From: a virus
IMG/VR virus record: IMGVR_UViG_3300021976_000023
Coordinates: 1-49,714 of that record
Strand: one strand, 5' to 3'
Length of the DNA stretch: 49,714 nucleotides
Shown here: piece by piece, positions 2,422 to 37,387 of the stretch
How the letters are laid out: each line of letters starts with the position of its first letter
Numbering within the stretch: position 1 is the stretch's first letter
Program-made: the position numbers and the translations under genes
The notes under the pieces: model-generated
Seen by the model: only the letters and a program-made list of their open reading frames with translations
What the model was told of the DNA's origin: nothing
The model's database searches: none

Positions 2422-3750
2422 TCAGGACGGTTCGTAATTGCTGCCGTGGCGACCGTGAGGGTCCGGCGGGACCTCGTAGCTCCCAGGAGGCGAACCTGTA
2501 AACGAGTCGATTTCTTGAGTGGTGCTCGGGTCCGGTGCCGGCGGAACCTCGTCGACGACGTCCCGACGTCGCGCAGCAGCCTCCGGGGGCGCCGTGTCCA
2601 TGTACGTGATCCGTTCGTTGGTGTACTCCGTAGGGTTCTGATCGAACCCCGGCGGGTACTCGTCCACCCACGTGCGGCCGAACGCTTCCGTTGTCGACAC
2701 CGGCGGCTCGGGTACATCCATCGCTTCCCTGAAGTCGGTAGTTGTAGCCGGCAATGTCCGGAGCAGTTCCACCACGAACGCGGACGCCAACGCCCGGTAG
2801 TCGATCTGAACCGAAGGCCCAGGAGGCGCCGTGTCCGGGAGGCGTGACAGAGCGGCTTGAATCGCCTGTACTGCGTCGTTGATGGCTTCAACCCACGCGC
2901 GCACTTCAGCGGTTGAAAGCCCAACCAAACCGATCGACTTTGCGAGCTCGCCGATTGCGGCGGTAGCCACCGCGTTCTGATTGAAGTCCTCTTGTGCGAG
3001 ACGCAACGTCTCCCGCGATGTACCCTGCCAAGCGCTCTGGCCAGGACCCGTGCCCTCATTCAATACGTCGCGGAAGATCTGCTTCAACTCATCTGCATTC
3101 ATGTCCTCGAAGTCTCCGATCTCAAGCCATTCGTTGACAACTCGGTTTGAATCGACATCGCCCGTAATACCGCGATGGGACCCGGTAGAGGTGAACTGCC
3201 GAGCGACCACCATCTGTCGAGACCAACCGGGAGGCAACACCACCTGATCGTCCGGTGTACTGTCATACAGCGAAATATGAAGATGCCGCCACTCTTCCGG
3301 AAGGTAGCTCGCCTGAAGTCGAGCGGGCTCCAAGTACCACCGACCCGAGTAGATAGCCCCACGCGGATAGCCGTATTGGGCCATAGCCGTGCAGAACTCG
3401 ACAGCATGAGCGCGAGCTCGCCACCACTCGGTAGACGGGCCGAGCCCTGTGTCCTCGACATCCAAACAGACCCAATCCCGGGCGGGGTCGAATCCGCCGA
3501 TACGTTGCAAAGTTGCTACGAAGAACGCAGCTTCATTGAAGCCTGTCGAGCGGGAAGGCGTCGCGTAGTGGTAGACCCCGCGACGCAACCCGTAGGCGCC
3601 TGCGCTATGCCACTGCGCGGCGAAGTACGGGTTCACGTACGAAGTACCTTGCGTGGCCTTTATCATCAGCCGATCGGGGCCACTGGCCGTGTAAGCCTCG
3701 ATACTGACGGCGCCTTGCCAGGATGAGATGTCAGCGAACGGCGAAGGCAC
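2422..3750 (-). CDS. Endolysin, GH25 muramidase
   Basis: Hydrolyses the peptidoglycan sugar backbone at lysis. Residues 1 to about 215 are a glycoside hydrolase family 25 domain: ADISSWQG at the N terminus (Asp7) and CLDVEDTG with Asp97 and Glu99, the usual catalytic positions. The second half (about 230-442) is not a recognised wall-binding domain. It has a helical stretch and then a proline- and acid-rich tail. It follows the tail genes and small proteins in the same direction, and a 60-residue two-helix protein at 13808 may be the holin. No lysin B accompanies it. The family assignment is firm; the role of the C-terminal half is unknown. Confidence 0.93.
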   Translation of the reverse strand: MPSPFADISSWQGAVSIEAYTASGPDRLMIKATQGTSYVNPYFAAQWHSAGAYGLRRGVYHYATPSRSTGFNEAAFFVATLQRIGGFDPARDWVCLDVEDTGLGPSTEWWRARAHAVEFCTAMAQYGYPRGAIYSGRWYLEPARLQASYLPEEWRHLHISLYDSTPDDQVVLPPGWSRQMVVARQFTSTGSHRGITGDVDSNRVVNEWLEIGDFEDMNADELKQIFRDVLNEGTGPGQSAWQGTSRETLRLAQEDFNQNAVATAAIGELAKSIGLVGLSTAEVRAWVEAINDAVQAIQAALSRLPDTAPPGPSVQIDYRALASAFVVELLRTLPATTTDFREAMDVPEPPVSTTEAFGRTWVDEYPPGFDQNPTEYTNERITYMDTAPPEAAARRRDVVDEVPPAPDPSTTQEIDSFTGSPPGSYEVPPDPHGRHGSNYEPS

Positions 3751-3996: not shown

Positions 3997-4313
3997 ACCT
4001 TTCTCGGGTTCTTCTGGTTCTTGACGAAGGCTTCCCGGCGAGCCGCCACCGCCGCGTCACTCATCTGCCGGTTGCGCGCTTTCCACGCGCTGAAAGCTGC
4101 CCGCGTCGCCGCGTTAGGTTCGGTGTCTTCGAGGTCAGCTCGGACCTTCGCTTTGACCCGGTCGTGCAAGCTTGACGTCTCAACCTCGATCGGAGGCACA
4201 CTCGCCAATATCAGATCGATTTCGCCGGGGCGGGTGGCGCCGTCCGGATCCGGGGGTATGTTTTGGTTGGTCTCAGGATTTGTGATTGCCGAGTCCGGTA
4301 GTGGTCGCGTCAT
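3993..4313 (-). CDS. Unknown small protein in the tail-lysis interval
   Basis: 106-residue protein with no recognised domain. The first part is Pro/Asp-rich (PDSAITNPETNQNIPPDPDG). The second is helical and charged, ending in basic KNQKNPRKV. The start at 4313 overlaps the stop of the preceding gene by four bases (ATGA), which indicates translational coupling and rules out the longer upstream reading. It lies between the receptor-binding-like tail protein and the endolysin, where tail accessory or lysis regulators are usual. No function can be assigned. Confidence 0.65.
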   Translation of the reverse strand: MTRPLPDSAITNPETNQNIPPDPDGATRPGEIDLILASVPPIEVETSSLHDRVKAKVRADLEDTEPNAATRAAFSAWKARNRQMSDAAVAARREAFVKNQKNPRKV

Positions 4314-4747
4314 GACGTCGTCCGTAGACTTCCCTCGATCAGGAGAAAATCGTTCGCCGCCCACGTGATGGGCACGGTAGCCGCCCATCCCACCGAGCTC
4401 GGGCCGTAGATACGGTCCATGAACGTTCCGCCACCTGCTTGTAGCTTGATTCGGCCGGTGTAACCGGTCGCTGCACTGTTGTCCCACGCGAACGCTGACA
4501 TGGTCTGGGTGAACGCTGTTCCGTCACCTGAGAGACCCCCCGGCAGAGTCAACCCGAGAGTGCCGACCGCCGAACCGGTACCGAACACAAAGATGGCGTG
4601 CACATCGATCGAGTTCGTTCCGACCCGACGCCAGTAGCCGCTTACTTGGCCCGCGCCAACCGTGACATTGGCGAAGACGGGAGTAAACGGGGTCCAACCC
4701 GAAAATGCGTCGCCTGCTCTGATGATGTTTCCCGCGTAAGCTGCCAT
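4310..4747 (-). CDS. Tail tip / receptor-binding-like beta protein
   Basis: 145-residue Gly-, Thr- and aromatic-rich protein with the pattern of small phage tail proteins of C1q-like or head-domain fold: FTPVFANVTVGAGQVSGYW, then RRVGTNSIDVHAIFVFGTG. Similar proteins commonly end tail operons of actinophages and are thought to be receptor-binding or fibre-tip subunits. It follows the giant GH26 tail protein by six bases and overlaps the next gene by four. No membrane segment or enzyme motif is seen. The fold is inferred from composition and repeats, not from a search. Confidence 0.65.
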   Translation of the reverse strand: MAAYAGNIIRAGDAFSGWTPFTPVFANVTVGAGQVSGYWRRVGTNSIDVHAIFVFGTGSAVGTLGLTLPGGLSGDGTAFTQTMSAFAWDNSAATGYTGRIKLQAGGGTFMDRIYGPSSVGWAATVPITWAANDFLLIEGSLRTTS

Positions 4748-4753
4748 TCTGAC

Positions 4754-7700
4754 CTACCAAAGAGAGAGGTAACGAGCGCGACTGTTCGGGTTACGGTTGT
4801 CGTGGACGGGCAGTAGGTTCGACCACACGTTATTCTGGTTGGTGTCGTTGAAGTAGACCTCGGCATACATCAGACCAATGGCCTTCAGATGGTTGAACCA
4901 TTCTTTCATCCATGTAAAGAAGTCCGGGTTATCCTGGCCGCCGTCTGCGAGCTTGTTAACCGCGCCGTTCAGTCCCCACTCTGGGAAAATCATCTGCTTA
5001 TTGTGCAGATCGGCGAAGGCTTCCCAGTACTTCGCCCGACCCGTGACCGTGTTCTCACGGTTGTTGATTGCGTTGTAGCCGATGGCGCGCGGGTAATGAT
5101 CGTAGATGTCAAGGCCGATGTAATCGACGTATGAATCTCCGGGCCAGCAATCTGTTGAGTTGTGGCTCGGCGGATTCTGTGAGTACCCGGCGTTCATGGT
5201 CCAAGCGAACTTAGCCGCCGGACGCGTGATTCGGGTTTGCGTCACGATACGCGCGAATGCGGTTCGCCACGCTACCGCGTTGGTTGCCGAATGCGGGAAC
5301 CAGTTGCCGTTAAATTCCCATCCAATCTCCGTGATCGGTTCCGCCATCCCTCGCGCGACGTAGGCGTTAAGGGAACGTCCCCACTGTTGCCAATGCCCGT
5401 CATACGCACCGGAGTTGATGGCGGCTGCCTGCGCACCCATTCCGGCGATGCCGGTTGGTGTGAACGGTTGCGCGATGACAACGACCAACCGTGGATTAGT
5501 CCAGTTTCCGAGCACGTATCCTGGTTGTACGATTTGATCCCAGCCGCCGTTACGCACCGTGTAAGTCAATGTCGAAGTGACCTCGACACCACGGAAACTG
5601 GTATTCCAATAGTCGACGTTGGGTTGTGTGTACTGTCCCGCCACCTCCGGACGCACAGCACCGGAGAACCACCCGTATGACGTCCCGATAGGGTCCGGGT
5701 CCGGCGGCGGCGGCGGCGGCGGCGGGTCGACCCCTTCCGCGAGGATTTCGATTCCCATCACGACAGCCGCGTTATTTGTGCTTCCCGCGAGAGAGAACGC
5801 GATGGTGCAGATCCCCGAGGCAGGGATAGTGGTTGCGTACGTCTTGATGAGCTGTGCAAAGGTGCCGTTCGCTTCGTCGTACACGTCAAGGTTGTCGGAG
5901 ACCAGCACGCCGTTAAGCGTGACGTCGAACTGGCGGTAGCCGTTGCCGGGGGTACCGGCGAAGTTCTCCGAAAAGTAGAGCTTGACGGTCGCTGCACCGG
6001 CAGGCACGAACGGGATGGCGTAGTTGAACGCTCCCCACCGTTCGGTTTTGAGCATCTCATCGTGTTGGGTGCCGTAGCTTGGTGCGCCCTGATTGGCGAC
6101 CGTGCCTCCGGTGAAATGCTGGTCTGCCGCCCAGACGACGCCATCTGGCCCCGTGTACTGCGGCCCACCCGCGTTGATGCGGATAACAGTCGTAACGCCG
6201 GGGTCGGGAGGTGGCGGTTCGTCAGGTAGATCAGGTTCGATGAAACCAACCAATACGTCATCGCCGAGTGCGTAGTGTACCGGTTGGTAAACGTGTATTG
6301 GTTCTTCCGGGACGTGGCTCTTGATTACGCCGTTGACCGACCGGGTGACAATGAACTCTTGTGTAGTCAGGTCACCACTGAACGAGGAGCTTTGACCGGT
6401 CACTGAAATGACGGTCATTCGTTCGCCACCGATGACGACGTCGAACGGGAAGTCGCCTACCGTCTGCCATTGCGGCCCGGTCTCTGTCCGAACGATAAGG
6501 ACAAAGTCGGTTTCGTTGATGATGTTTACGAGCGATGATGCCTGCGAGTCGTATCGCGAGCTCGCAGCATCGTACACACCGACGCGGTATGGCGAATCCG
6601 GAGCACAGTTGATATCGATCGAGTGCGTGTGTCCGCCGAGCGTTTCGGAGAACCCGAGGGCTATCTGCTCAATATCGTCGGGCGGAAACCGATCGGGTGT
6701 GTTTGTGATGACAAGCTTGTCACCTACGTCTAGCTGCTTCACGCGCTTTGTGAGCTCAGGATTTGACACAAGCTGCGCGCGCTCCAACAACACCGATATC
6801 GTGGGGTAGCGAGCTTCGTCGACGGTGCCCATGTGGACCCGCCATGACGCCTGATCGACTAGTTGTTCATCGACATTGAGATTGATGGTAGGGGTATCGT
6901 CGTACCGACCGATTTCCGGTACGGAAAGTTCGGGTACCGTTATGTTGCCGACGTCGTTCGCGCTTCGAGCGCTAGATCCGTTTCGACGGGTCACGGTGAT
7001 GTCGTTACGAGTGCGTCGGTCGTCTTCGATCGGAGAAATACCGGTGAGTTGTTCTAGCGAGTAGTCGAAAGTGACGGCAGTTCCACCGAACGACGATTGC
7101 GCGTACATGCTCGCGCGCGTGCGATAAGCAAGCCCGAGGAAATCTCGCGGTTCGTGAAGGATACCTAGATCGGCATCGGCTGATTCGGTCAGCAGATTGA
7201 TGAGCGTATCGGGTAGCTGCGGCCCAAGTATCACCGAATCTGTGAAGCTACCGATGATGGAGATTGGTACTTTCTCCTCGGTGCACAACCTGTAGATCCG
7301 AGCTGCCGCGCGCTCTCCTCGATGTGCGTTCAGTTCCGCCGAGAGGTCAAAGAGCGAGATAATCTCCCGATGAACTGAGATATGACCGATGGCCACATCG
7401 TCCAGAATCCGCTCGTGATTGGAGTCGATGCGGGTGATGCGACCTAGCGTGGTGGCAGGTTCGATGGCGGTAAGGAAATTACCAATTACCGCACCTACTT
7501 CGAGTGTATGAAGAAACCACTCGACGCCCGTCCCGTTTTGCTGTAGACCGATGGAAACCCGTAGCAGCTTTCCGTTGACAGCAAAGGCCGATAGTCCGGA
7601 ATCGACCACGATTGACAGCCCCGCGTCGAAACCCAGGAACCGCAGATCTCCCGCCGCGTTGACATGCAGTTGCCACAACACGACTTGACTGTCTCGGGTC

Positions 7701-9742
7701 CAGATTCGGAAGACGCAACGCTCACTAGGAACTCCTCCCGGGGGTACATGCATCACAAACCAGGCTTGCATCTCGCCTGACACGTCAATGTAGGGCGGAA
7801 CAAACCCGAGGACCATTGCCTCGTTAAGGTGCGGTAGCGGTTTCGAGCATTCAAAAGCCGAATCGGTCGCAAACGTTGGTGTGCCATTGGAAATCATCGG
7901 GGGATAGTCGGCAATGGCACTCGCAAAGGCCGACGCGCCCTCTTCGTCTTCGAGCGGCCAATAGCTGATAAGAGCGGCGCCGAGCGACTCGATCCCACGG
8001 CGAAGGGTGGATTTCAACGGGCTTTCACCTTGCCCGATACGCCGTAGGGTGCCACTGGACACAGCCGGTACGTAGGCGTCAGTGCCCGTGAGATCCCAAC
8101 GCTGGGGCCACTCGGCGACAGCACCGAAGTGACGATCGTCGCGTCCGCTGATTTCCGCCGAGCCCGCTAGGCGCCAGATGTTCCCCTGCGCATCCGCGAA
8201 ATAACGAGTGTCGTTCGCTTGTGCTCCGAAGTCTGGCGAGGCACGAAGTGTTCCGTTGATACCACTGTAGATCCGAGCTCCGTAGAACCGCCCGTGCGCG
8301 GCTCCAGGATGCGCGCTCGAATAGCCGCCGAACCACACTTCAGCAGCACTATCGAAAATCGACGTAGTACCGGCGGTGACTACAGGGGCGCCTAACTGCG
8401 ACCATGGCCCGTCAAGGTTGTCGGCAATGTAGAACATGACTGTGTTCCCGCTCGCACCGTTGTTGATATCGAGTGTCGCGCGGATCGTCTTGCGCCCGTG
8501 GTGGGGAAGTGGAACGGGCTCGGTTGATTTTGCGCTAATCATTGACGTACCGGTAGCCGACCAAGACAGCCACACATAGCCTTCGTAGTCCGAAACCATG
8601 TAATAGCTGTTGTCTGCTGTGCCAAGGACTTTTGCAATCAGAAGCGTGTTCAAACCCTGCCAGGAAGTGAGTTCGACATCAACCCTGAGATCGAGATCGC
8701 CCGTCACTGACATCCCGGAAGAGTCGAGCGCGAAAGCGTAGTCATGAGAGGCCCGGTTGAGAACGAGCGCGGATTCATCCGCTGGCACACTCACGCGGTG
8801 CGGGGTGTTCCGTCGGAGCTTGCCGTAATACGGGCCGGTCGGATTCCGGGATGAGTAATGACCCTCGCGGTTGTCGAGCGTGAAAGCGCACGACGCGGGG
8901 TCTACCGAACTCGCTTCGCCCGACAACGCGCGTGAGATGACGATGTTGTCGGCGTAACGGGTGTCCGGAGTCGCGTTGATCCATTCTTGCCGGATGAAGC
9001 TGGACCCGAGCACCAACCAGTTGTTGCTTTCGCCATCCAAAAACTCTTCAGTGCCTCGCGGAATACGGGTGAAATCAGGGTTAGCAATTCGCTCACCGAA
9101 GAACTTATCCCAGATCTCGACAGAATAGATCTTGCCTTGGAAATTGCCGAACGTGCCGAATCCGGGACGCCCGAGATTAGAAGTACCAATTTCGATCGGC
9201 GTTGTGGTCTCGGCTATTTCGGTCGCGCCAGCACCAACGAACACAGCACCAAGCTGTGTCCAAGGACCGTTGATTCCATCGCCCAAATAGAACGTAACGG
9301 TATGCTCGGGGACGGTGGCGCCGTTGTCCGCGTCCATCACGATGCGGATCGTCTTACGAGTGCCGTCGGAGAGCCCGACACCGACTGTCGAAACCGCTTC
9401 TTTCAACCCGCCGAAAGTGCCGTCAGCAGACCAGATGAAACGGACTGTGCCATCGACGAGCAATTCGAGTTCGTAGCTGAGTTGCGCATCCAACACGCCG
9501 TAAGAGTAGTTCTTGGCTAGAAAGACGATGTTACGCGGGGGTGTCCAATCATCCGCCGCACAGTCGATCCGCAGATCGATATCAGAGCCGATGTGCACTT
9601 CGTTGGAGGATTCCATATAGACGAGTCCACCCGTAGGGGCGTCAATGCCACTCGCGACTGCCCCCGAAGAGAGATAGCTGCTACCGAGCTGTAGTTCCGA
9701 AGAGATTTCGAGGGGGGTTTCCGGAAATGCCATTGACGCCAC
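4754..9742 (-). CDS. Giant minor tail protein with LamG-like, malectin and GH26 domains
   Basis: 1662 residues, probably a tail-tip protein that binds and cuts a surface polysaccharide. Two LamG/concanavalin-like domains, about 30-225 and 330-520, repeat the pattern RKTIR...NGAS...VxFYxxD...GPWxQLGAxxV. Between them is a minor-tail signature (DNREGHYSSRNPTGPYYGK). Residues about 1186-1337 match malectin (IRINAGGPQYTG, YFSENFAG). A run of eight prolines follows, then a C-terminal domain (1356-1662) resembling glycoside hydrolase family 26. Glu1476 in GWEFNGNWF and Glu1588 in FPEWG fit the acid/base and nucleophile, 112 apart, as in known GH26 mannanases. The substrate is unknown; a mannan-containing capsule or wall polymer is plausible. 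It lies between the signal-peptide protein and the receptor-binding-like gene. Confidence 0.85.
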   Translation of the reverse strand: MASMAFPETPLEISSELQLGSSYLSSGAVASGIDAPTGGLVYMESSNEVHIGSDIDLRIDCAADDWTPPRNIVFLAKNYSYGVLDAQLSYELELLVDGTVRFIWSADGTFGGLKEAVSTVGVGLSDGTRKTIRIVMDADNGATVPEHTVTFYLGDGINGPWTQLGAVFVGAGATEIAETTTPIEIGTSNLGRPGFGTFGNFQGKIYSVEIWDKFFGERIANPDFTRIPRGTEEFLDGESNNWLVLGSSFIRQEWINATPDTRYADNIVISRALSGEASSVDPASCAFTLDNREGHYSSRNPTGPYYGKLRRNTPHRVSVPADESALVLNRASHDYAFALDSSGMSVTGDLDLRVDVELTSWQGLNTLLIAKVLGTADNSYYMVSDYEGYVWLSWSATGTSMISAKSTEPVPLPHHGRKTIRATLDINNGASGNTVMFYIADNLDGPWSQLGAPVVTAGTTSIFDSAAEVWFGGYSSAHPGAAHGRFYGARIYSGINGTLRASPDFGAQANDTRYFADAQGNIWRLAGSAEISGRDDRHFGAVAEWPQRWDLTGTDAYVPAVSSGTLRRIGQGESPLKSTLRRGIESLGAALISYWPLEDEEGASAFASAIADYPPMISNGTPTFATDSAFECSKPLPHLNEAMVLGFVPPYIDVSGEMQAWFVMHVPPGGVPSERCVFRIWTRDSQVVLWQLHVNAAGDLRFLGFDAGLSIVVDSGLSAFAVNGKLLRVSIGLQQNGTGVEWFLHTLEVGAVIGNFLTAIEPATTLGRITRIDSNHERILDDVAIGHISVHREIISLFDLSAELNAHRGERAAARIYRLCTEEKVPISIIGSFTDSVILGPQLPDTLINLLTESADADLGILHEPRDFLGLAYRTRASMYAQSSFGGTAVTFDYSLEQLTGISPIEDDRRTRNDITVTRRNGSSARSANDVGNITVPELSVPEIGRYDDTPTINLNVDEQLVDQASWRVHMGTVDEARYPTISVLLERAQLVSNPELTKRVKQLDVGDKLVITNTPDRFPPDDIEQIALGFSETLGGHTHSIDINCAPDSPYRVGVYDAASSRYDSQASSLVNIINETDFVLIVRTETGPQWQTVGDFPFDVVIGGERMTVISVTGQSSSFSGDLTTQEFIVTRSVNGVIKSHVPEEPIHVYQPVHYALGDDVLVGFIEPDLPDEPPPPDPGVTTVIRINAGGPQYTGPDGVVWAADQHFTGGTVANQGAPSYGTQHDEMLKTERWGAFNYAIPFVPAGAATVKLYFSENFAGTPGNGYRQFDVTLNGVLVSDNLDVYDEANGTFAQLIKTYATTIPASGICTIAFSLAGSTNNAAVVMGIEILAEGVDPPPPPPPPDPDPIGTSYGWFSGAVRPEVAGQYTQPNVDYWNTSFRGVEVTSTLTYTVRNGGWDQIVQPGYVLGNWTNPRLVVVIAQPFTPTGIAGMGAQAAAINSGAYDGHWQQWGRSLNAYVARGMAEPITEIGWEFNGNWFPHSATNAVAWRTAFARIVTQTRITRPAAKFAWTMNAGYSQNPPSHNSTDCWPGDSYVDYIGLDIYDHYPRAIGYNAINNRENTVTGRAKYWEAFADLHNKQMIFPEWGLNGAVNKLADGGQDNPDFFTWMKEWFNHLKAIGLMYAEVYFNDTNQNNVWSNLLPVHDNRNPNSRARYLSLW

Positions 9743-9779: not shown

Positions 9780-10295
9780 CTAGAACAGGGCGACCCATCC
9801 ACCCCATGCCGGAATGCATTTCCATATGTTGCCGGACGTCCCGACGAACCACATTGAGTTGGCTTCGCTGGCCGCGTCCGGGCCGCCGCACCGCGTGGGG
9901 TCCGGGTCGTACTGCGATGTCGTCGACCACTGAACGAGCCCGCCACCCTTGATGATGCCTAGATTGTCGCCCAGAACCCAGGCGCCCCCGGCTTTGTTCA
10001 CCGCGAGAATCGGCTGATTGAGTTCGTCGTCGATTTGGAGGCACTGTCCGTTCACCCCGCCGTTGCATCGAATCCGCAGACCCACTTGTGGGGTGCCTAC
10101 GGCGTTGTCCATCTGGAACACCCACGGGCTATCCGTGGTAGTCGAGCCAGGTGCCGTGGCGACCGTGCTCGGGTGCGCCTCCGCTGTCCCGACGATGAGG
10201 CTTCCGCTGACCCCACCCGCGAGGAACGCGGCTAGTGCGAGAGGCACCAATGAACGGCGTATCCGACCGCGAGCTCTTTCGACAATGCGGGTCAT
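9780..10295 (-). CDS. Signal-peptide or membrane-anchored tail-region protein
   Basis: 171-residue protein with a textbook export signal: a basic start (RARGRIRRS), a hydrophobic core and an AEA cleavage-like site at about residue 40. The rest resembles fibre proteins (GTPQVGLRI, PILAVNKAGGAWVLGDN) and has four Cys residues that could form disulphides outside the cell. Export of a protein encoded between the tape measure and the tail-tip gene is unusual. It may be displayed on the infected cell, for example for superinfection exclusion or adhesion, or the hydrophobic stretch may be a virion anchor. Function is unknown; the signal is seen directly. Confidence 0.75.
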   Translation of the reverse strand: MTRIVERARGRIRRSLVPLALAAFLAGGVSGSLIVGTAEAHPSTVATAPGSTTTDSPWVFQMDNAVGTPQVGLRIRCNGGVNGQCLQIDDELNQPILAVNKAGGAWVLGDNLGIIKGGGLVQWSTTSQYDPDPTRCGGPDAASEANSMWFVGTSGNIWKCIPAWGGWVALF

Positions 10296-10314: not shown

Positions 10315-12282
10315 CTAGCTACCTAGGACTACTTGGACGTTACCGCCCTTGACCCGGATCGAGCTCCGGAGGATCTCCAATAGGAGTTGATCTAGCTTGC
10401 TCGCGCCTGCCCGCAACTCCAAAAGGATCTTTCCGCTGCCGCGTCCACCTCCTGAGAGCATCGCTTCCGACTGCCCGTGAGGAATCACCGAAGATCCGAA
10501 CGGCAACCTGACAAGCTCGCGCCCCCGTTCGCCCACCTCGACCAGACCCCCTCGGGCGCCTCCGCTCGCCGCTCGCCCGATGCCTGCTAGCCCGCCCACA
10601 ACGCCTCCGGATGCGAATCCGGGGACCAAACCGCGTAGCACCGATCCTGGGCTCGGGAGGATTGACTTGATGGCACCAGCGACCCGTCCGGCAGCACCCT
10701 TGATAAAGCCCACCAACCCATCAATCAAATTGCCTGCAACACGACGGCCGAGCCCCGCCAGGTCGCCGATTCCGTCCTTGATCGCGTTGAAGATGTTTCG
10801 CGCGGCTGTCGAAATGAGCGAGATTCCGGCTTGAATCGCGCCCGAGACGAGCCCGCCGAGCGTCCGGAAGATCGCGGTGATGTTGTTGACGATCTGCGAC
10901 GCGATAGCGCCGAGAATGCCGACCATTCCTTCAATGATCCGCTGTATTCCGGACCATGCTTTTGACCAGTCGCCCGTGAGTACACCGGTGAATACTTGAA
11001 AGATTCCGATGATGATGTTGATGACGCCTCGAATGATATTCAAGACGTTGTTCATCGTATTAGTGACCCAAGGGCCAAAGATGTTTATGAACCACGCGGC
11101 TACGGGCGCCGCCGCAGCGAGGAAATCGCCGAACGCTGGAATCAAATCGTTCTTGATAAGCGTGACGATTCGAGAGATCGTCGGTCCGACCGACGCTACC
11201 AAGTCGTTAAACGCCTGTTTCACGGCGGGCAGAACAATAGCCGCCGCAGTCTTCAGGTCGTCGATGAAGCCCATTCCTTCGGGCTTCTTTGTGAAGTAGT
11301 CCATCACCGCTTGGTAAGCGGCCTTGATGTCATCGAAGTGGCGGATCACCAATCCGACAGCAGCGATGATGACCGTAACAGGCCCACCAAAGGCGATCGC
11401 TACCAAAGCTAGCGCATCGGCGAGCATCCAAAACTGCGTTTGATAGATCTCGTACCAGTTAGCGAGCTTCTTTATCCACTCGACCACGGTCCCGATCACG
11501 TCGCCCACGGTGGACGCGGTATCTTTGAGTTTGCCGAGCCCCTCGCTTACCGTCTCAGCGTTGACGCCGTCCATTGCGGCGGCTAGCCGGTACATGATGT
11601 CCGTGAGCCCGCTGGTACCGGCAGCTAGAGACACGCCCATGATGCGGCCGAGCATCTGCGCGAACGCAATTCCGACCTGAAGGATCGGTTCCCGCAAACG
11701 GTCGACTGATTGCCAGATCGGGTGCAGAATGCCGTTGATCGTTTGGAGTCCTTCAGCGGAAGAACCCCATTCCATGAACTTGCCGACGATCACGCCTACG
11801 CTCTCGCCGATCTGCGTAAACGTATGGTTGATCTCCGGCCAAAACTTCGCATTGAACGACTCGACGAACGGGCGGATACCCTTCGCTGCCGCCTCGCTTG
11901 CGTTCTCCCCTGCTTTCTTGAAACCATCCGCTATGGGCTGTAATGCAAGTCGAGCCGCACTGCCTTCGGCAAAGATCGCTTTCAATGCCGACGATACGAC
12001 TAGTCCAGCTACCGCGAACGCGGCCAACGCAGGCGCCGCCGCGACAGCAGCTTGACCTACCGCGAAAACCGCTTGACCCGCCGCGATGACTTGAGGCCCA
12101 AGACTTATCGCGAGGGAACCGACACCCGCGAGCTTGGTAGCCATCTGCCCCAACGGCGCGAGCAACGACATCGCCCGACGCCCGAGGGCTGAAAACGCAG
12201 AGCCCGCGACGCGGTCAATACCAGCAAACGTGGACGACACCATATCGCGCCCACGAATGACGATATCAACAACGTTGCTCAC
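10315..12282 (-). CDS. Tail tape measure protein
   Basis: 655 residues, sets tail length and is ejected with DNA. Typical features are present: a long Ala/Gly/Ile-rich helical protein with a hydrophobic middle, repeated VINIIIGIF and ITAIFRTLGGLVSG-like helices, and a Gly-rich stretch near the C terminus (FASGGVVGGLAGIGRAASGGARGG). It directly follows the tail chaperone pair, its usual position. The GTG start at 12282 comes right after the stop of the frameshifted chaperone (12283). The length predicts a tail of about 100 nm by the usual 0.15 nm per residue rule. Confidence 0.93.
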   Translation of the reverse strand: MSNVVDIVIRGRDMVSSTFAGIDRVAGSAFSALGRRAMSLLAPLGQMATKLAGVGSLAISLGPQVIAAGQAVFAVGQAAVAAAPALAAFAVAGLVVSSALKAIFAEGSAARLALQPIADGFKKAGENASEAAAKGIRPFVESFNAKFWPEINHTFTQIGESVGVIVGKFMEWGSSAEGLQTINGILHPIWQSVDRLREPILQVGIAFAQMLGRIMGVSLAAGTSGLTDIMYRLAAAMDGVNAETVSEGLGKLKDTASTVGDVIGTVVEWIKKLANWYEIYQTQFWMLADALALVAIAFGGPVTVIIAAVGLVIRHFDDIKAAYQAVMDYFTKKPEGMGFIDDLKTAAAIVLPAVKQAFNDLVASVGPTISRIVTLIKNDLIPAFGDFLAAAAPVAAWFINIFGPWVTNTMNNVLNIIRGVINIIIGIFQVFTGVLTGDWSKAWSGIQRIIEGMVGILGAIASQIVNNITAIFRTLGGLVSGAIQAGISLISTAARNIFNAIKDGIGDLAGLGRRVAGNLIDGLVGFIKGAAGRVAGAIKSILPSPGSVLRGLVPGFASGGVVGGLAGIGRAASGGARGGLVEVGERGRELVRLPFGSSVIPHGQSEAMLSGGGRGSGKILLELRAGASKLDQLLLEILRSSIRVKGGNVQVVLGS

Positions 12283-16979: not shown

Positions 16980-18707
16980 CTACGTTGCGGATGTCCAGCC
17001 ATCAAACCGACAATGCAAGACGCCCCGTACCCCATTCAATGTACCTCCGCAATTCGGGCAAGATCGTGGGGGTTGAGCCTGGTCGAACGCGATGGTCTGC
17101 CGAGCCTCCGTGATGATGGCCTGGTATTGCCGCCACCCGTGCGGGCGGGGTACCGGCAGAGCTGCATTGTCGACAACCAAAACGGATGCGTTGAACGCGA
17201 GCCCGGACGCCTGCGCAACGGTTGCCAACGGTGCGGCACTCAACGACACGTCCGCTTCGAGCGCGGCAGCGTCGGCGGTCGCCACGTCGCTCGAAGCGTA
17301 GATGTTCGGCTGCCCGTGCGAGCTCGCGCCCGCTTCGGCGGTGACAGCCGTCGGCCGGATGAGAGTGGACGAGCCGAAAGCGGTAGCGTCCGCGTGCGCG
17401 GCTTCAGCCTGCGCTGAAACGTGACCTTCCGGATCGAGTGCCGAGCCGGTAGCCGTCGCGGTCGGAGACACCGGAGCAACCCGAGTCGCGCCCGGTGGCG
17501 AGCTCGCGACACCTACGGCTGTATCAGGCGATACTCCGATACTCGGCTGTACGTCATCAGCGATCGCCGTGCCTGCCGCAGTCGAGGCATGCGAACTCGC
17601 GGACCCGCCTGGTTGCTCGGCGGTAGCCGTGGCCTGGGCCGTCGCGGGAAGCGCGTTCGGCGAAATGATCAATGCAGGCCCATGAGCAGTGGCAACCGCC
17701 GTCGCAGTCTCGGCGAGTGCCGCCGTACCGATGGTGGCTCCGAGCCCAGAAGCGACAGCCGACGCCCCGACCGACGTGGGTTTGATCATCGTGTGGGGAT
17801 CGAGCGCGAGTGCCTGCGCGTTCGCGACCCCTGAGGGAATGGCGATGCCCGGGTTTGGTAGCTGTCCGTTTCCGGTCGCTGACGCGGTCACGGCATTCGC
17901 GCGGATGGTTGTATTACTTCCGTTGGCCGTGGCGTCTGCCGTTGCCGTTTCGGCGAACGCATTGACGTGTACAGCTACAGATGCGTTGAGCGCGGAGGCT
18001 ACGCCTGACGCGGTCGGGCTCGCGGGCGCGATCTTCGTTGTGGGTTGACCTGCGACGGCCGAGCCCGCCGGGGCGTTGGCTACCGACGGCCGGACTCGCG
18101 GAGTGGCGGGGTTTGCGGTTGCGACACCGGCCGCGTTCTCCGCGTTGGCGCTGACAGGACCGACAACTAGGTTGACATGAGAAACAACCATCGATCCGTC
18201 GGTGCCAGAGTAACGACCTGCGTTGAAGCGAGCTCCGACACTCGCGATATTCCACGTCGGAGCTGTAGTGGTGCCGTACGTCGTCCACACAGCGCCGTCG
18301 GGGGACACAGCGAAGACGACATTACCCGTCGACGTGCTGTGACTGATTTTCCAGTACCTATGGTTGATCGCACTAAACGCGGCGGTAGTGACCGTGGTCT
18401 GAACGCCAGCGATTCGCTTTTCCGCTACAAGCGTTGTTTCAGTGAGAATGAACGCGCAATAATTGTTATTGTCGAAATTGTCGAGCTCGACATACATGAA
18501 GTATTGCCGACCCGTGCCCGTGACTGGTGCGATTTCAGCACTAAGAAACGAATCGGTAAAGTCGAACGCGGCATTGACAGACCAACAATGCAGATACGAA
18601 AGCGTACCCGGAATCGTTACTTGTGTTGCGGCCCGAGTAACAGTTGCGCTAGAACTGTACTGCGCATTATCGTTGAAAGTGCTGTTAAGCGACTGTGTCA
18701 ACGCCAC
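16980..18707 (-). CDS. Ala-rich repeat fibre-like protein with lectin-like head and zinc ribbon
   Basis: 575 residues in three parts. Residues 1-175 are a beta-sandwich like a concanavalin/LamG fold (YFMYVELDNFDNNNYCAF). Residues about 180-510 are around fourteen repeats of 19-22 residues, each an alternating Ala-x-Ala run, a Gly or Asn turn, a hydrophobic Ile/Val and a Pro (for example AETATADATANGSNTTIR). The C terminus is a zinc ribbon (SCPNCGG ... LHC). Such a repeat series suggests a rod or solenoid. Its place between small head genes and the adaptor suggests a capsid or neck fibre. GC-rich codons match its neighbours. Not recognised as a named family. Confidence 0.75.
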   Translation of the reverse strand: MALTQSLNSTFNDNAQYSSSATVTRAATQVTIPGTLSYLHCWSVNAAFDFTDSFLSAEIAPVTGTGRQYFMYVELDNFDNNNYCAFILTETTLVAEKRIAGVQTTVTTAAFSAINHRYWKISHSTSTGNVVFAVSPDGAVWTTYGTTTAPTWNIASVGARFNAGRYSGTDGSMVVSHVNLVVGPVSANAENAAGVATANPATPRVRPSVANAPAGSAVAGQPTTKIAPASPTASGVASALNASVAVHVNAFAETATADATANGSNTTIRANAVTASATGNGQLPNPGIAIPSGVANAQALALDPHTMIKPTSVGASAVASGLGATIGTAALAETATAVATAHGPALIISPNALPATAQATATAEQPGGSASSHASTAAGTAIADDVQPSIGVSPDTAVGVASSPPGATRVAPVSPTATATGSALDPEGHVSAQAEAAHADATAFGSSTLIRPTAVTAEAGASSHGQPNIYASSDVATADAAALEADVSLSAAPLATVAQASGLAFNASVLVVDNAALPVPRPHGWRQYQAIITEARQTIAFDQAQPPRSCPNCGGTLNGVRGVLHCRFDGWTSAT

Positions 18708-27428: not shown

Positions 27429-28052
27429 CTACCCATTGAACGACCCATAATCGTTAAGGCGGGGCAGACCCCGGGGGTTGATTCCGGGCATCAAGCCACG
27501 CTCTGACAGTAGCAAATACCACCAATGCAGCTCAGCATCCCGAGCGTGGTCACTCCCTCGCGTAGCCGCCCGTATGCCGTAATGCTTCAATACCGACGCG
27601 GTTGTTTTCTTCAAGCTCGGTGGCTGCATGATTAGCTTAGGCAGATTCATACGGTCGGTTTGTATTGCATTATGGATAAGCATCCATTTGAGCGCGCCTA
27701 TCATCTGCGACGTCGGCATATCCGAGCCCGTTTGCGCCATCGCCTTATCGGGCTGTAGCCGGAAGTCCTCGATCACAAGGACGTCGATCCATCCACACGT
27801 GATCGCCGTGTGCAGTGCACGCAACGCGATCGCGGGTGTCGTCTCGAAGCTCATGGCCAGTTCGTCGTGCTCGGACGTAAAGCCGAGTCCGACTCCGACG
27901 GCCATACCGACATGCGCTTCTCCGGGATCTACTGAGACAATCCCATATTGCTCGTACGAGGGCCTGTTCATCTGTGCTGCCCGCGCGAGTTCATTTTCCG
28001 CCGCTTCAACAGATGTGCCGAGCTCGCGCGCGTGGGGGCGTAGGTCAGACAT
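27429..28052 (-). CDS. RuvC-like Holliday junction resolvase
   Basis: 207 residues with an RNase H-type nuclease core: Asp42 in IVSVDPGEAHVGMAV, Glu95 in VLVIEDFRL, and Asp168 and Asp172 in SDHARDAELH. The positions match phage RuvC-like endonucleases, which resolve branched DNA before packaging. It lies directly upstream of the terminase pair, a logical place for trimming concatemers. It overlaps the DUF2637 gene end by eight bases. Confidence 0.85.
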   Translation of the reverse strand: MSDLRPHARELGTSVEAAENELARAAQMNRPSYEQYGIVSVDPGEAHVGMAVGVGLGFTSEHDELAMSFETTPAIALRALHTAITCGWIDVLVIEDFRLQPDKAMAQTGSDMPTSQMIGALKWMLIHNAIQTDRMNLPKLIMQPPSLKKTTASVLKHYGIRAATRGSDHARDAELHWWYLLLSERGLMPGINPRGLPRLNDYGSFNG

Positions 28053-28914
28053 CAGAGTTCTCCGTTTCGAGCTTCAGGCGCCACCGTCGCGCGAGCTTAC
28101 GTGCGTTGTCGATGTCATCGGACGTCGTGTAGTCGTGGTCGATCGCCCAACGGGCCGCGTCTGACACCGTCATCCGCTTCGCGATCACATCGGCGATGAT
28201 GGGCCGGGCGTCGTCGGGAACGGCGGCACTCGCACGACCCCGCGCGAACCGACGGCGGACCCCCGTCTCCGAGGACTCCGGGAGTTCCGAGGACCCCGGG
28301 AGTTCCGAGGACTCAGCAGCCTCGATCGCGGCAGGTTCGACTAGCTCAGCATCGTCGATAGGCGTGCCCGCGTCCGAGCCCGTGTCCGTGCTCGTGACAG
28401 GCTCGGCCGAAGGCCGTATGAACATCGGCGGGTCAAGAGGCTGACGGCCTGCCCGCGCGAGGGTGACCGCGAGATGCAGCGCAAGCGCGGAAGCAAGCGC
28501 GGGGATCGTCGCGATCAACGGCGCCCAGTCGGGTACGGTCCGCACGGCTTCCCCCGGGACACGTGGGGCACCTGGCACCACCGTGCCCACGAGCGACCGG
28601 GTATGCAGGTACTGGCCTAGGGCAGACAGGCCAACGAACGCGAGCACGATAGCCCAGGCGTAGGCGCGGTGGCGCACCTTCCGGAAGGCGTAGGCCGCCA
28701 GGTAGGCCACGAAGACCACCCCATCAACCAGGGCAGGGAAGAGGGCACCTTGCCACCGCGTGTAGCCCGCCTCGCGCGCAAGCCCGTACATGCCGTAGTA
28801 GAGAACGGCCATCGCGGCGCCTGTAATCGTGATGGCACCCAGACGCGCAAGTACGGGGACAGACAACTGACGTAGCAATTGGACGCCGTCGCGAGTGTGG
28901 GCAAAATTCAGCAT
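28045..28914 (-). CDS. DUF2637-type membrane protein (plasmid-spread-like)
   Basis: 289 residues. Four hydrophobic segments in the first 165 residues (for example GAITITGAAMAVLYYGMYGL and ALVDGVVFVAYLAAYAF) match the DUF2637 family, best known from conjugative plasmids and integrative elements of Streptomyces and relatives, where they accompany TraB. The linker carries a short repeat (ELPGSSELPESSE), and the C-terminal 80 residues resemble a helix-turn-helix-containing soluble domain. It heads the leftward late operon. Its ATG starts six bases after the -10 TAAAAT, so the mRNA is probably leaderless. The partner TraB/FtsK-like gene is at 35765. Confidence 0.8.
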   Translation of the reverse strand: MLNFAHTRDGVQLLRQLSVPVLARLGAITITGAAMAVLYYGMYGLAREAGYTRWQGALFPALVDGVVFVAYLAAYAFRKVRHRAYAWAIVLAFVGLSALGQYLHTRSLVGTVVPGAPRVPGEAVRTVPDWAPLIATIPALASALALHLAVTLARAGRQPLDPPMFIRPSAEPVTSTDTGSDAGTPIDDAELVEPAAIEAAESSELPGSSELPESSETGVRRRFARGRASAAVPDDARPIIADVIAKRMTVSDAARWAIDHDYTTSDDIDNARKLARRWRLKLETENSDV

Positions 28915-35501: not shown

Positions 35502-35768
35502 TCAGAACGTGCTGTCGCTCGCGTCGTCCACGTCGAGCTCGTCGAGCACGTACTTGTCATGCCGGACGATCGCCCTGTCCTTCAGGAGCTTGACGCCACC
35601 CGCGTGGCGCACGAGCACATCCTTGCCCGTCAGCGCCTCGACAGAGTCCGCGAACAGGGCGTGCAGCGTCTGACCGCGCCGGTAGACGATGCGGTGAATC
35701 ATGTCAGGCGCTTCGGGCGTCTCCACGGCGACATCCTCGGAGGTCTCAGTCTCGGCAATGGCGGTCAT
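35502..35768 (-). CDS. Small acidic protein after the translocase gene
   Basis: 88 residues with an acidic N terminus (TETSEDVAVETPEAPD), then HRIVYRRGQTLHALFADSVE, and a mixed C terminus. No family recognised. The start overlaps the translocase stop by four bases (ATGA) and has GAGAGGA upstream. It is the last gene of the leftward block; an internal promoter (35810-35838) may boost it. Confidence 0.65.
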   Translation of the reverse strand: MTAIAETETSEDVAVETPEAPDMIHRIVYRRGQTLHALFADSVEALTGKDVLVRHAGGVKLLKDRAIVRHDKYVLDELDVDDASDSTF

Positions 35769-37387
35769 GCGTGGGTCCTCTCATCGGGCATGGATTGCGC
35801 GTCGACTTCAGTGTACGCAGCGTTTGCCTCATGGGCAAACGTTACCGCCGGCAGGCTCGGCAGTGCGTACGGGTCGTCTTCCGGCGGCACCATGCCACCA
35901 ATGGCGATGAAGTCCGACAGTGCGTCGTCGATCCACGCGGTACGGAACCGGATGTAGTCGCGAGCTCCATCCTTGTACATGTAACCGGTACCCTGCATCC
36001 TTATGCTGATCTTGTGACAACGGGCGCCTTCAGCCGTCGCGCCCTGGCCCAACGTGATATCGGTCTGTTCCCGGTTGCGCGTCGCGAGGCACGCCCGTTG
36101 CGGGAACAGATCCCGGACCGGCCCGAGCGTCTCCTTTTGCGGCACCTGCGCTAGCGCGAGCACCGTGTACGCCGCTTTCCGGCCTATGGCCAAAGACTCA
36201 CCGAGCGGGCTGGACGTTCCATCCTTCAGCAGATCGGACAGTAGCAGCATCTCATCGATAATGAGCAGGTCGTGTGGTTGCTCCAACGATGGCGTATGCT
36301 TCCGAGATGTCATCCCATCCAACCGAGCATCCAACGCCTCACGCTGTTCGCTGATGACCCGTTCCGCGTCTTTCACCCTGTCCGTGTAGCTGTGCACATG
36401 GAACATGGGCCGCTCGCCGCGCAAGCATGGGCCACACACCCGACGGGCGCTCTTGTCCGTCGCGAGAGCCTTGGGTGGGCCACCCACCGATCTAGCTGGT
36501 CCATGAACCAGACGGCTATGGCCCATGTACTGAACCACCCGCGACCCGTCGACAGGCTCGGATGTCCTAGTGGTCCACACCCACTCTCCCGCCTCGCGTA
36601 GGGCAGCAAGCTCAACCCCACCGGCAGGGTCGACCACTCGGACCCGCAATGGGATACGCCTCCGTTGGAACCCCGCGAGGGTCGCCCAGGCGAGCGAGCT
36701 CTTACCGGAACCGGATTGACCTATGACAAGCATCGACAAGCGGGTGTCCACTTCGGCGTCATCGGCGTCGTCATCCATGCCGATCGAAACCGACAACTGA
36801 TCTTCCGGGATGCCCAGTTGATCTAGCTCGATTACTCTCCGTAGCGGGTCTGCCCATCGGAACTCGATCTCGCACTCTGACGGCCAATCACCATCCAAAA
36901 TCCGAACGGATCTACAGCGAAGCGAGCTACAAAGGCGCCCGGCAACCTTTCTCAGATCGTCGATGGTAAGTCCGGAACCTCCCAAGTCGACGAAACCGGC
37001 GACTGCTTCGCCACGCGCATGCACACCCGCTATTGTCGGTGCTTCCTTATCGAGCTCGCCCGTGAATCGCGCGGCCTCGCAGGCGTTTGCCCACCGACGC
37101 CGAACACGTGTTACTCTGGACACGGCTCGGACTCGCATCGGGAATCCCATCAAGGCGAAGCCTTGATGTGATACCGCAGCAAACCGAATCGTGTAACTGA
37201 AGAACGGTACGGTGAGAGCGAGTAGGGCGCCAAAACGTGAGCTAGTCCGCAGCATTCCGGCAGAGCCGAGAATGAAAGCGACCGTCCATCCCGGGTGCAG
37301 CCTCGCACCGCGAAACGTCAAACGGATTAGCCACATTGCAAAGGTTGCGACCAACACCCGCATAGACAATTTCACTGTGAATGCCAT
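35765..37387 (-). CDS. TraB/FtsK-SpoIIIE-type DNA translocase
   Basis: 540 residues. N-terminal hydrophobic segments (about 35-70) anchor it in the membrane. Walker A GQSGSGKS is at about 223-230, Walker B LLIIDE at about 374-379, and VVDPAGGVEL is a typical line after Walker A. This matches TraB-like translocases that move double-stranded plasmid DNA between mycelial cells of Streptomyces, which FtsK-type motors resemble. Between the two motifs is an insert of about 50 residues (280-330) with CGPC, absent from the relatives I know. SD AAGGAGG precedes the ATG. With the DUF2637 and basic membrane proteins it looks like a transfer unit. Confidence 0.85.
   Translation of the reverse strand: MAFTVKLSMRVLVATFAMWLIRLTFRGARLHPGWTVAFILGSAGMLRTSSRFGALLALTVPFFSYTIRFAAVSHQGFALMGFPMRVRAVSRVTRVRRRWANACEAARFTGELDKEAPTIAGVHARGEAVAGFVDLGGSGLTIDDLRKVAGRLCSSLRCRSVRILDGDWPSECEIEFRWADPLRRVIELDQLGIPEDQLSVSIGMDDDADDAEVDTRLSMLVIGQSGSGKSSLAWATLAGFQRRRIPLRVRVVDPAGGVELAALREAGEWVWTTRTSEPVDGSRVVQYMGHSRLVHGPARSVGGPPKALATDKSARRVCGPCLRGERPMFHVHSYTDRVKDAERVISEQREALDARLDGMTSRKHTPSLEQPHDLLIIDEMLLLSDLLKDGTSSPLGESLAIGRKAAYTVLALAQVPQKETLGPVRDLFPQRACLATRNREQTDITLGQGATAEGARCHKISIRMQGTGYMYKDGARDYIRFRTAWIDDALSDFIAIGGMVPPEDDPYALPSLPAVTFAHEANAAYTEVDAQSMPDERTHA
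35810..35838 (-). promoter_or_regulatory. Internal promoter-operator inside the translocase gene end
   Basis: TTGCCT-CAT-GGGCAA dyad (35824-35838). Leftward, TTGCCC, 17 bp, TACACT (35815-35810). It overlaps coding sequence, so it is less certain than intergenic copies. Confidence 0.5.

Follow-up and report, generated by a model that had tools for sequence, protein, structure and literature searches.

What does a glycosidase-like domain do at the end of a phage tail protein, and on which sugar would it act? The locus lies in IMG/VR record IMGVR_UViG_3300021976_000023, the complete record, 49,714 bases long, of a soil-type bacterial virus; it is called the window here. An earlier note, made from the letters alone, had read one long gene as a tail protein carrying two LamG-like domains, malectin, a proline hinge and a GH26-like glycosidase. 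We consider it likely that a mobile cassette of malectin, hinge and GH26-type endoglycanase has been fused here to a phage tail protein that probably belongs to the tail tip. The computation shows a core belonging to a tail-protein family, a cassette lying past the end of the relatives, conservation of the GH26 fold and catalytic pair, and the presence of the same cassette in two prophages, where the tail proteins that carry it are unrelated.

The tail gene and its neighbourhood

The gene is one uninterrupted minus-strand frame of 1662 codons, and the opposite (+) frame across it contains many stops. Translation probably starts at ATG 9733, giving 1659 aa and leaving the first three residues untranslated, because a Shine-Dalgarno-like ggaagg stands 10 nt ahead of this ATG, versus only 2 nt ahead of GTG 9742, and because the relatives begin with MAFP. 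Residue numbers throughout count from GTG 9742 (the 1662-aa version). The tape measure gene upstream places the tail protein within the tail module (Table 1). The two genes are separated by a 171-aa ORF with a hydrophobic N-terminus, which gave no family match in profile searches; in prophage L110 the tape measure directly abuts the tail gene. Past the 145-aa ORF on the downstream side lie a 164-aa ORF and the endolysin.

Elsewhere in the window, a 575-aa Ala/Thr-rich protein (16980-18707) that has repeated motifs and, at its C-terminus, a zinc-ribbon-like CPNCGG...C is encoded among structural genes and matched no family significantly. The virus may also have plasmid-like features: an FtsK/SpoIIIE-type ATPase (35765-37387) that is 30-38% identical to plasmid FtsK domain proteins, a multi-TM protein (28045-28914) that resembles plasmid spread proteins and had no match in the plasmid search, and a prim-pol.

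Table 1. Tail locus of the window: genes, domains and predicted catalytic residues.
Feature	Residues	Position	Strand	Match or remark
GH25 endolysin, downstream of the tail module		2422..3750	-	PF01183, E 8.6e-27
145-aa ORF, immediately downstream of the tail gene		4310..4747	-	L110 homologue, 51% identity
Tail protein with malectin-GH26 cassette		4754..9742	-	single ORF, 1662 codons from GTG 9742
Predicted GH26-type glycosidase domain	1356-1662	4757..5677	-	
Glu1588, predicted nucleophile, strand 7	1588	4979..4981	-	FPEWG; aligned with CtLic26A E222
Glu1476, predicted acid/base, after strand 4	1476	5315..5317	-	WEFNG; aligned with CtLic26A E109
Proline hinge	1340-1352	5687..5725	-	PPPPPPPPDPDPI
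Malectin domain	1186-1317	5792..6187	-	PF11721, E 1.1e-20
First linker, core-cassette junction	1160-1185	6188..6265	-	PDEPPPPDPG; missing in relatives
Tail-protein core	~252-1159	6266..8989	-	phrog_5313, E 6e-227
Repeat domain, copy 2	~330-530	8153..8755	-	insert, absent in relatives L168, L173, L175
Repeat domain, copy 1	~46-250	8993..9607	-	first 'LamG' of the earlier note
171-aa ORF, hydrophobic N-terminus		9780..10295	-	
Tape measure protein		10315..12282	-	phrog_58, E 6.5e-26

The core of the tail protein

The core matches phrog_5313 nearly end to end (residues 252-1156 on profile positions 158-1049 of 1052), shares 26-38% identity with Streptomyces phage minor tail proteins and closes on a conserved C-terminal ending, ...FIVTRSVNGVIKSH...YAL. 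The isolates that carry this core are Streptomyces phages, where its gene directly follows the tape measure. Family match and upstream tape measure together bear out the original call of a tail protein. The two segments that had been called LamG-like proved to be genuine copies of one duplicated domain (35% identity, E 2e-26); the LamG label itself stays putative, as profiles of the repeat domain matched no LamG/ConA family in Pfam or PDB. A third, jelly-roll-like segment (residues 585-800) had no significant profile match. In Thermobifida phage P1312 (L109, 5332-8622), a phrog_5313-related tail protein is joined to a PhoD-like phosphodiesterase domain, another tail-carried enzyme.

A cassette appended at the natural end of the core

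Scanning IMG/VR with the core alignment gave 80 relatives, 75 of them full-length, and the C-termini were inspected by reading. In 73 of the 75 the protein terminates at the position of residue 1159, with the same motif, and neither malectin nor GH26 was found in any of the 80 core relatives. Supposed alternative C-terminal modules in some relatives (extensions of 200-437 aa) were rejected, since on inspection the additional residues are inserted internally, ahead of the usual conserved terminus. In the window protein 503 residues follow the core: a proline linker, a malectin domain, the proline hinge and the GH26-type domain. The proline linker, with its prolines at residues 1177-1181 and additional to the hinge, had been overlooked at first reading. 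The malectin call stands well clear of the Pfam cut-off (74.7 bits versus 23), the same region matches PDB malectins at 7e-4, and the hinge is present as described.

The closest core relative, prophage L110, is 48-52% identical to the window core. Its tail gene ends at 9390 and, after a gap of 10 nt, the next gene starts at 9400 and encodes the homologue of the 145-aa protein. Because the relatives end at residue 1159 and the next gene in L110 is a homologue of the next gene in the window, gene order and alignment place an in-frame insertion of ~1.5 kb exactly at the natural C-terminal end of the protein.

The fusion was seen in this single metagenomic record, and the viral record searches found no second one with this core-cassette junction, as would fit an assembly chimera of two viruses. 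We hold such a chimera to be extremely improbable: the 1662 codons run in one frame without stops, GC is similar throughout (0.57-0.59), and L110 matches both flanks (the tail core and the syntenic 145-aa gene), so that two joins would be needed, one of them in frame.

The C-terminal domain is predicted to be a GH26-type glycosidase

Searched alone, the domain scored narrowly above the PF02156 cut-off (22.5 bits versus 20.2); within the whole protein it fell just under it (20.1 bits), and relatives in prophages, described below, scored 26.6-32.5 bits. A tblastn search against 50,697 phage records found nothing related up to E 10, and scanning IMG/VR and GTDB contigs with the single protein was equally fruitless, so that alignments were required. 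'Glycosyl hydrolases' of Streptomyces plasmids align to the domain at 28-33%, and a profile built from those alignments retrieved 18 viral and 79 genomic loci. A PDB search with the single sequence had given one weak GH26 match; it was superseded by a search with a profile of 58 relatives, which found GH26 enzymes, the best being the lichenase CtLic26A (2.4e-20). The two glutamates lie 112 residues apart, as first noted, and both are invariant across the 58 relatives, phage and cellular.

For the structure, AlphaFold was run with an alignment (from the single sequence it reached a pLDDT of only 32). The resulting model (pLDDT 75, pTM 0.82) has eight strands in a (beta/alpha)8 barrel; strand 7 bears E1588, and E1476 comes directly behind strand 4. 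GH26 structures top both the Foldseek and the VIA-align lists, at a TM of only 0.5-0.6 to solved members. The barrel on which the earlier note had staked its reading is thus present in the predicted model, with a GH26 Z of 21. Profiles, invariant catalytic residues, predicted barrel and gene context all support a GH26-like glycosidase, and profile and structure matches at this level lie well outside what chance would give.

A cassette that only binds carbohydrate, its barrel serving as a non-catalytic, lectin-like receptor-binding module, would be in keeping with the malectin and repeat domains, which suggest binding, and phages do put enzyme folds to such use. The invariance of both catalytic glutamates in phage and cellular members argues against this, and we regard it as quite improbable.

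The same cassette on unrelated prophage tail proteins

We searched for malectin plus GH26 in 395 Actinomycetes genomes and found two much closer relatives of the cassette (51-58% identity), both in prophages. In genome G156 (C2; L211/L221) a 713-aa protein consists of an unrelated N-terminus followed by malectin, hinge and GH26, with 53% identity over malectin and GH26; its neighbours are a phrog_5313-like tail protein, a GDSL-lipase tail protein and an amidase endolysin. In genome G086 (C116; L212/L220) a 542-aa protein next to Dit-like and minor tail proteins carries a long proline linker and GH26 (58% over GH26) behind a different N-terminus. Both thus resemble the window protein in linker or hinge and enzyme, the former also in malectin, and differ from it in the N-terminal tail part. 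The two loci correspond to IMG/VR proviruses L221 and L220 at 100% identity. No further cassette match appeared at E 1e-55 in 396 genomes sampled from the phylum, and at E 1e-4 the window shared no other protein with the compared stretches of the two prophage contigs. G156 also holds L110, on another contig and without the cassette (same IMG genome number, 2684623035); both halves of the window protein have close relatives in prophages of one genome, for the tail core the closest found. Since unrelated prophages carry it on other tail proteins, the cassette has the appearance of an exchangeable tool with which a phage would cut its way through host surface sugars.

Two further genes lie near these loci. 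A 995-aa prophage tail protein (L211, 12532-15519), encoded in G156 two genes upstream of the one with GH26, combines GDSL/SGNH hydrolase and Laminin_G_3 domains. Just past the endolysin of the G086 prophage, a second GH26-type protein with a membrane-anchored look (L212, 3590-4945) is possibly prophage-borne or a host paralogue.

In the tree, the GH26 domains of the window, G086 and G156 phages form one clade (100/100), and its sister is a group of 15 cellular GH26 proteins of the G156 family (100/99); row L195, from Actinomadura hibisca, is placed elsewhere and leaves this result untouched. These secreted paralogues share proline linkers and 35-41% identity with the phage domains, and differ in having signal-peptide-like N-termini and other binding modules and in not being tail proteins.

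The family that includes G156 and G086 has 35 genomes and is the entire order among the genomes examined. We infer that this family is Frankiaceae, because nifH is present in 25 of these 35 genomes within the Actinomycetes. Each of the 35 holds 3-23 candidate GH26-like stretches (first-look counts), and several of the encoded proteins, inspected over their full length, show signal-peptide-like N-termini as well as proline linkers. Some host GH26 genes stand in tandem (L213, 4908-7028 and 7852-9957), with repeated IEDTAxGxGxxQVxYxGxW modules before the enzyme. An actinobacterial host is plausible for the window virus, because the closest relatives of core and cassette occur in Frankiaceae-like prophages and terminase kin in Thermobifida and Streptomyces phages. 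These phages, which carry the closest isolate terminases, point away from Frankiaceae itself; GC is 60% in the window virus versus 68-71% in the Frankiaceae-like prophages.

Substrate of the predicted enzyme

The earlier note had proposed a mannanase whose target would be a mannan-type surface polymer of actinobacteria, such as mannan or arabinomannan. GH26 does include many beta-mannanases, which are present among the profile and structure matches, and a Frankia annotation and secretome paper notes secreted ManB/GH26-like proteins (PMC2266912). In two Actinomycetota MAGs (L029, 5692-10964; L043, 5779-11129) a four-gene cluster holds genes of 411 and 504 aa between two GH26 genes; the families of the intervening genes were identified in L029 only, where they are GT4-like and PMT_2-like. 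The cluster suggests one locus that makes and trims a glycan, and such a pairing would also suit a mannanase. By profile, however, the lichenase stands ahead of the best mannanase (1.6e-17), and by structure CtLic26A and the xylanase AlXyn26A reach a Z of ~21 versus 17.7-18.9 for mannanases; the closest enzymes of known structure are thus a beta-1,3-1,4-glucanase and a mixed-linkage xylanase. The spacing of the glutamates, offered as a mannanase hallmark, matches the lichenase pair E109/E222, 113 apart. The GH26 enzymes characterised so far cleave beta-linkages, while actinobacterial arabinomannan has alpha-linkages. A mannanase is therefore unlikely: alignments and model point to a GH26-type barrel and do not indicate a mannanase.

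Gene context is suggestive of bacterial exopolysaccharides as a broad class. Relatives in Rhizobiales (L024, 144-9021, and L083) sit in an exopolysaccharide locus in which GH16 with RTX repeats and GH26-type enzymes stand beside an ExoY-type sugar transferase, GT2, an epimerase and an oxidoreductase, and because of this a bacterial exopolysaccharide would fit as the substrate class.

GH26-type genes of more distant kinship are also present in the tail modules of environmental viruses. These lie beside collagen-like fibres in L007 and L008 (in L007 also beside the sheath), have fibre-like C-termini in L006 and L008, are fused to a collagen-like part in L022, and follow shortly after a 2022-aa minor tail protein in L015 or directly after the tape measure in L020. 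The L020 neighbour was rejected as a case of the shared phrog_5313 core, since the match covers a small part of the profile, in the repeat-domain region. Malectin was looked for in nine other viral GH26 records and was absent from them. Because these distant viral genes are scattered over several separate places in the tree, the pattern suggests that viruses have recruited GH26 more than once.

A proposed role during adsorption

As the cassette is fused to a tail protein, the enzyme is likely to be located in the virion. Viral glycosidases have also been read as auxiliary metabolic enzymes, which here would mean a virus-encoded aid to the degradation of plant polysaccharides for carbon. GH26 'mannanase' genes are listed among the viral CAZymes of mangrove soil, with predicted actinobacterial hosts (PMC6460857), the GX15bay record is annotated 'mannanase', and a viral GH5 endomannanase has been interpreted in this way (PMC6786970). 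The in-frame fusion to a structural tail protein speaks against such a role here, and so do the closest relatives, borne on tail proteins whose gene neighbours are tail and lysis genes. On the tree the GX15bay gene forms a long, distant branch, and it lies within a glycosyltransferase cluster. We consider an auxiliary role very unlikely.

On the reading of a tail-borne endoglycanase, the GH26-type enzyme would be displayed at the tip of the mature tail. Malectin and the N-terminal repeats would bind a surface glycan, the hinge would give the barrel access to the polymer, and the two glutamates, working by a retaining mechanism, would cut a beta-linked polysaccharide on the surface of the host, be it exopolysaccharide, sheath or capsule. 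Cutting during adsorption would allow the tail to bind and reach the membrane. The target need not be mannan; it would probably be a polymer that is remodelled by the secreted GH26 paralogues of the actinobacterial host family itself. More tentatively, phages of Frankiaceae or allied soil actinobacteria could trade a malectin-GH26 'key' cassette, kin of the expanded secreted GH26 set of their hosts, among unrelated tail-tip proteins; it would cut a surface polysaccharide specific to the host group and help to set which hosts can be entered.

Comparison with known systems

Tail depolymerases are a known kind, and phage depolymerases are known mainly from the capsule-degrading spikes of phages of Gram-negative bacteria. 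In the open-access literature we found no paper that describes a tail-borne GH26, and such an enzyme appears to be undescribed in actinobacteriophages. New here are this GH26-type tail enzyme, the malectin-hinge-GH26 cassette common to otherwise unrelated phages, and the kinship with the enzymes of the host family. The earlier note had seen tail protein, malectin, hinge and glycosidase; it had missed that they form a cassette past the natural protein end, shared with unrelated prophages. The cassette offers a handle on a polymer at the surface of soil actinobacteria, among them probably the nitrogen-fixing Frankia with its many secreted GH26 proteins. Some viral glycosidases from soils that are now classed as auxiliary carbon-cycling genes may be components of the tail that serve in entry.

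The phrog_5313 proteins (Dubu gp16, Vondra gp18, phiSASD1 gp38 and prophage L110) share the core of residues 252-1159 and its place after the tape measure, but end at residue 1159 without malectin or GH26. With CtLic26A (endoglucanase H of C. thermocellum, PDB 2bv9/2cit) the predicted domain shares the barrel fold and the aligned catalytic pair. It is only 16-18% identical to CtLic26A, AlXyn26A and CjMan26A, and differs from them in being borne on a phage tail. The residue before the acid/base is Trp in the window domain and His in CtLic26A, and because of this replacement the subsite chemistry may differ. The mangrove soil genes (PMC6460857; GX15bay record) are likewise GH26 in viruses with a predicted actinobacterial host, but were read as auxiliary metabolism, are distant in sequence and are not fused to a tail protein. 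Erwinia phage S6, which requires bacterial cellulose as its first receptor and encodes beta-1,4-glucosidases (PMC9544554), resembles the proposed system in directing phage glycosidases (GH5 verified) against a bacterial exopolysaccharide used as first receptor; it differs from the window virus in its glycosidase family and its host, and in being a podovirus.
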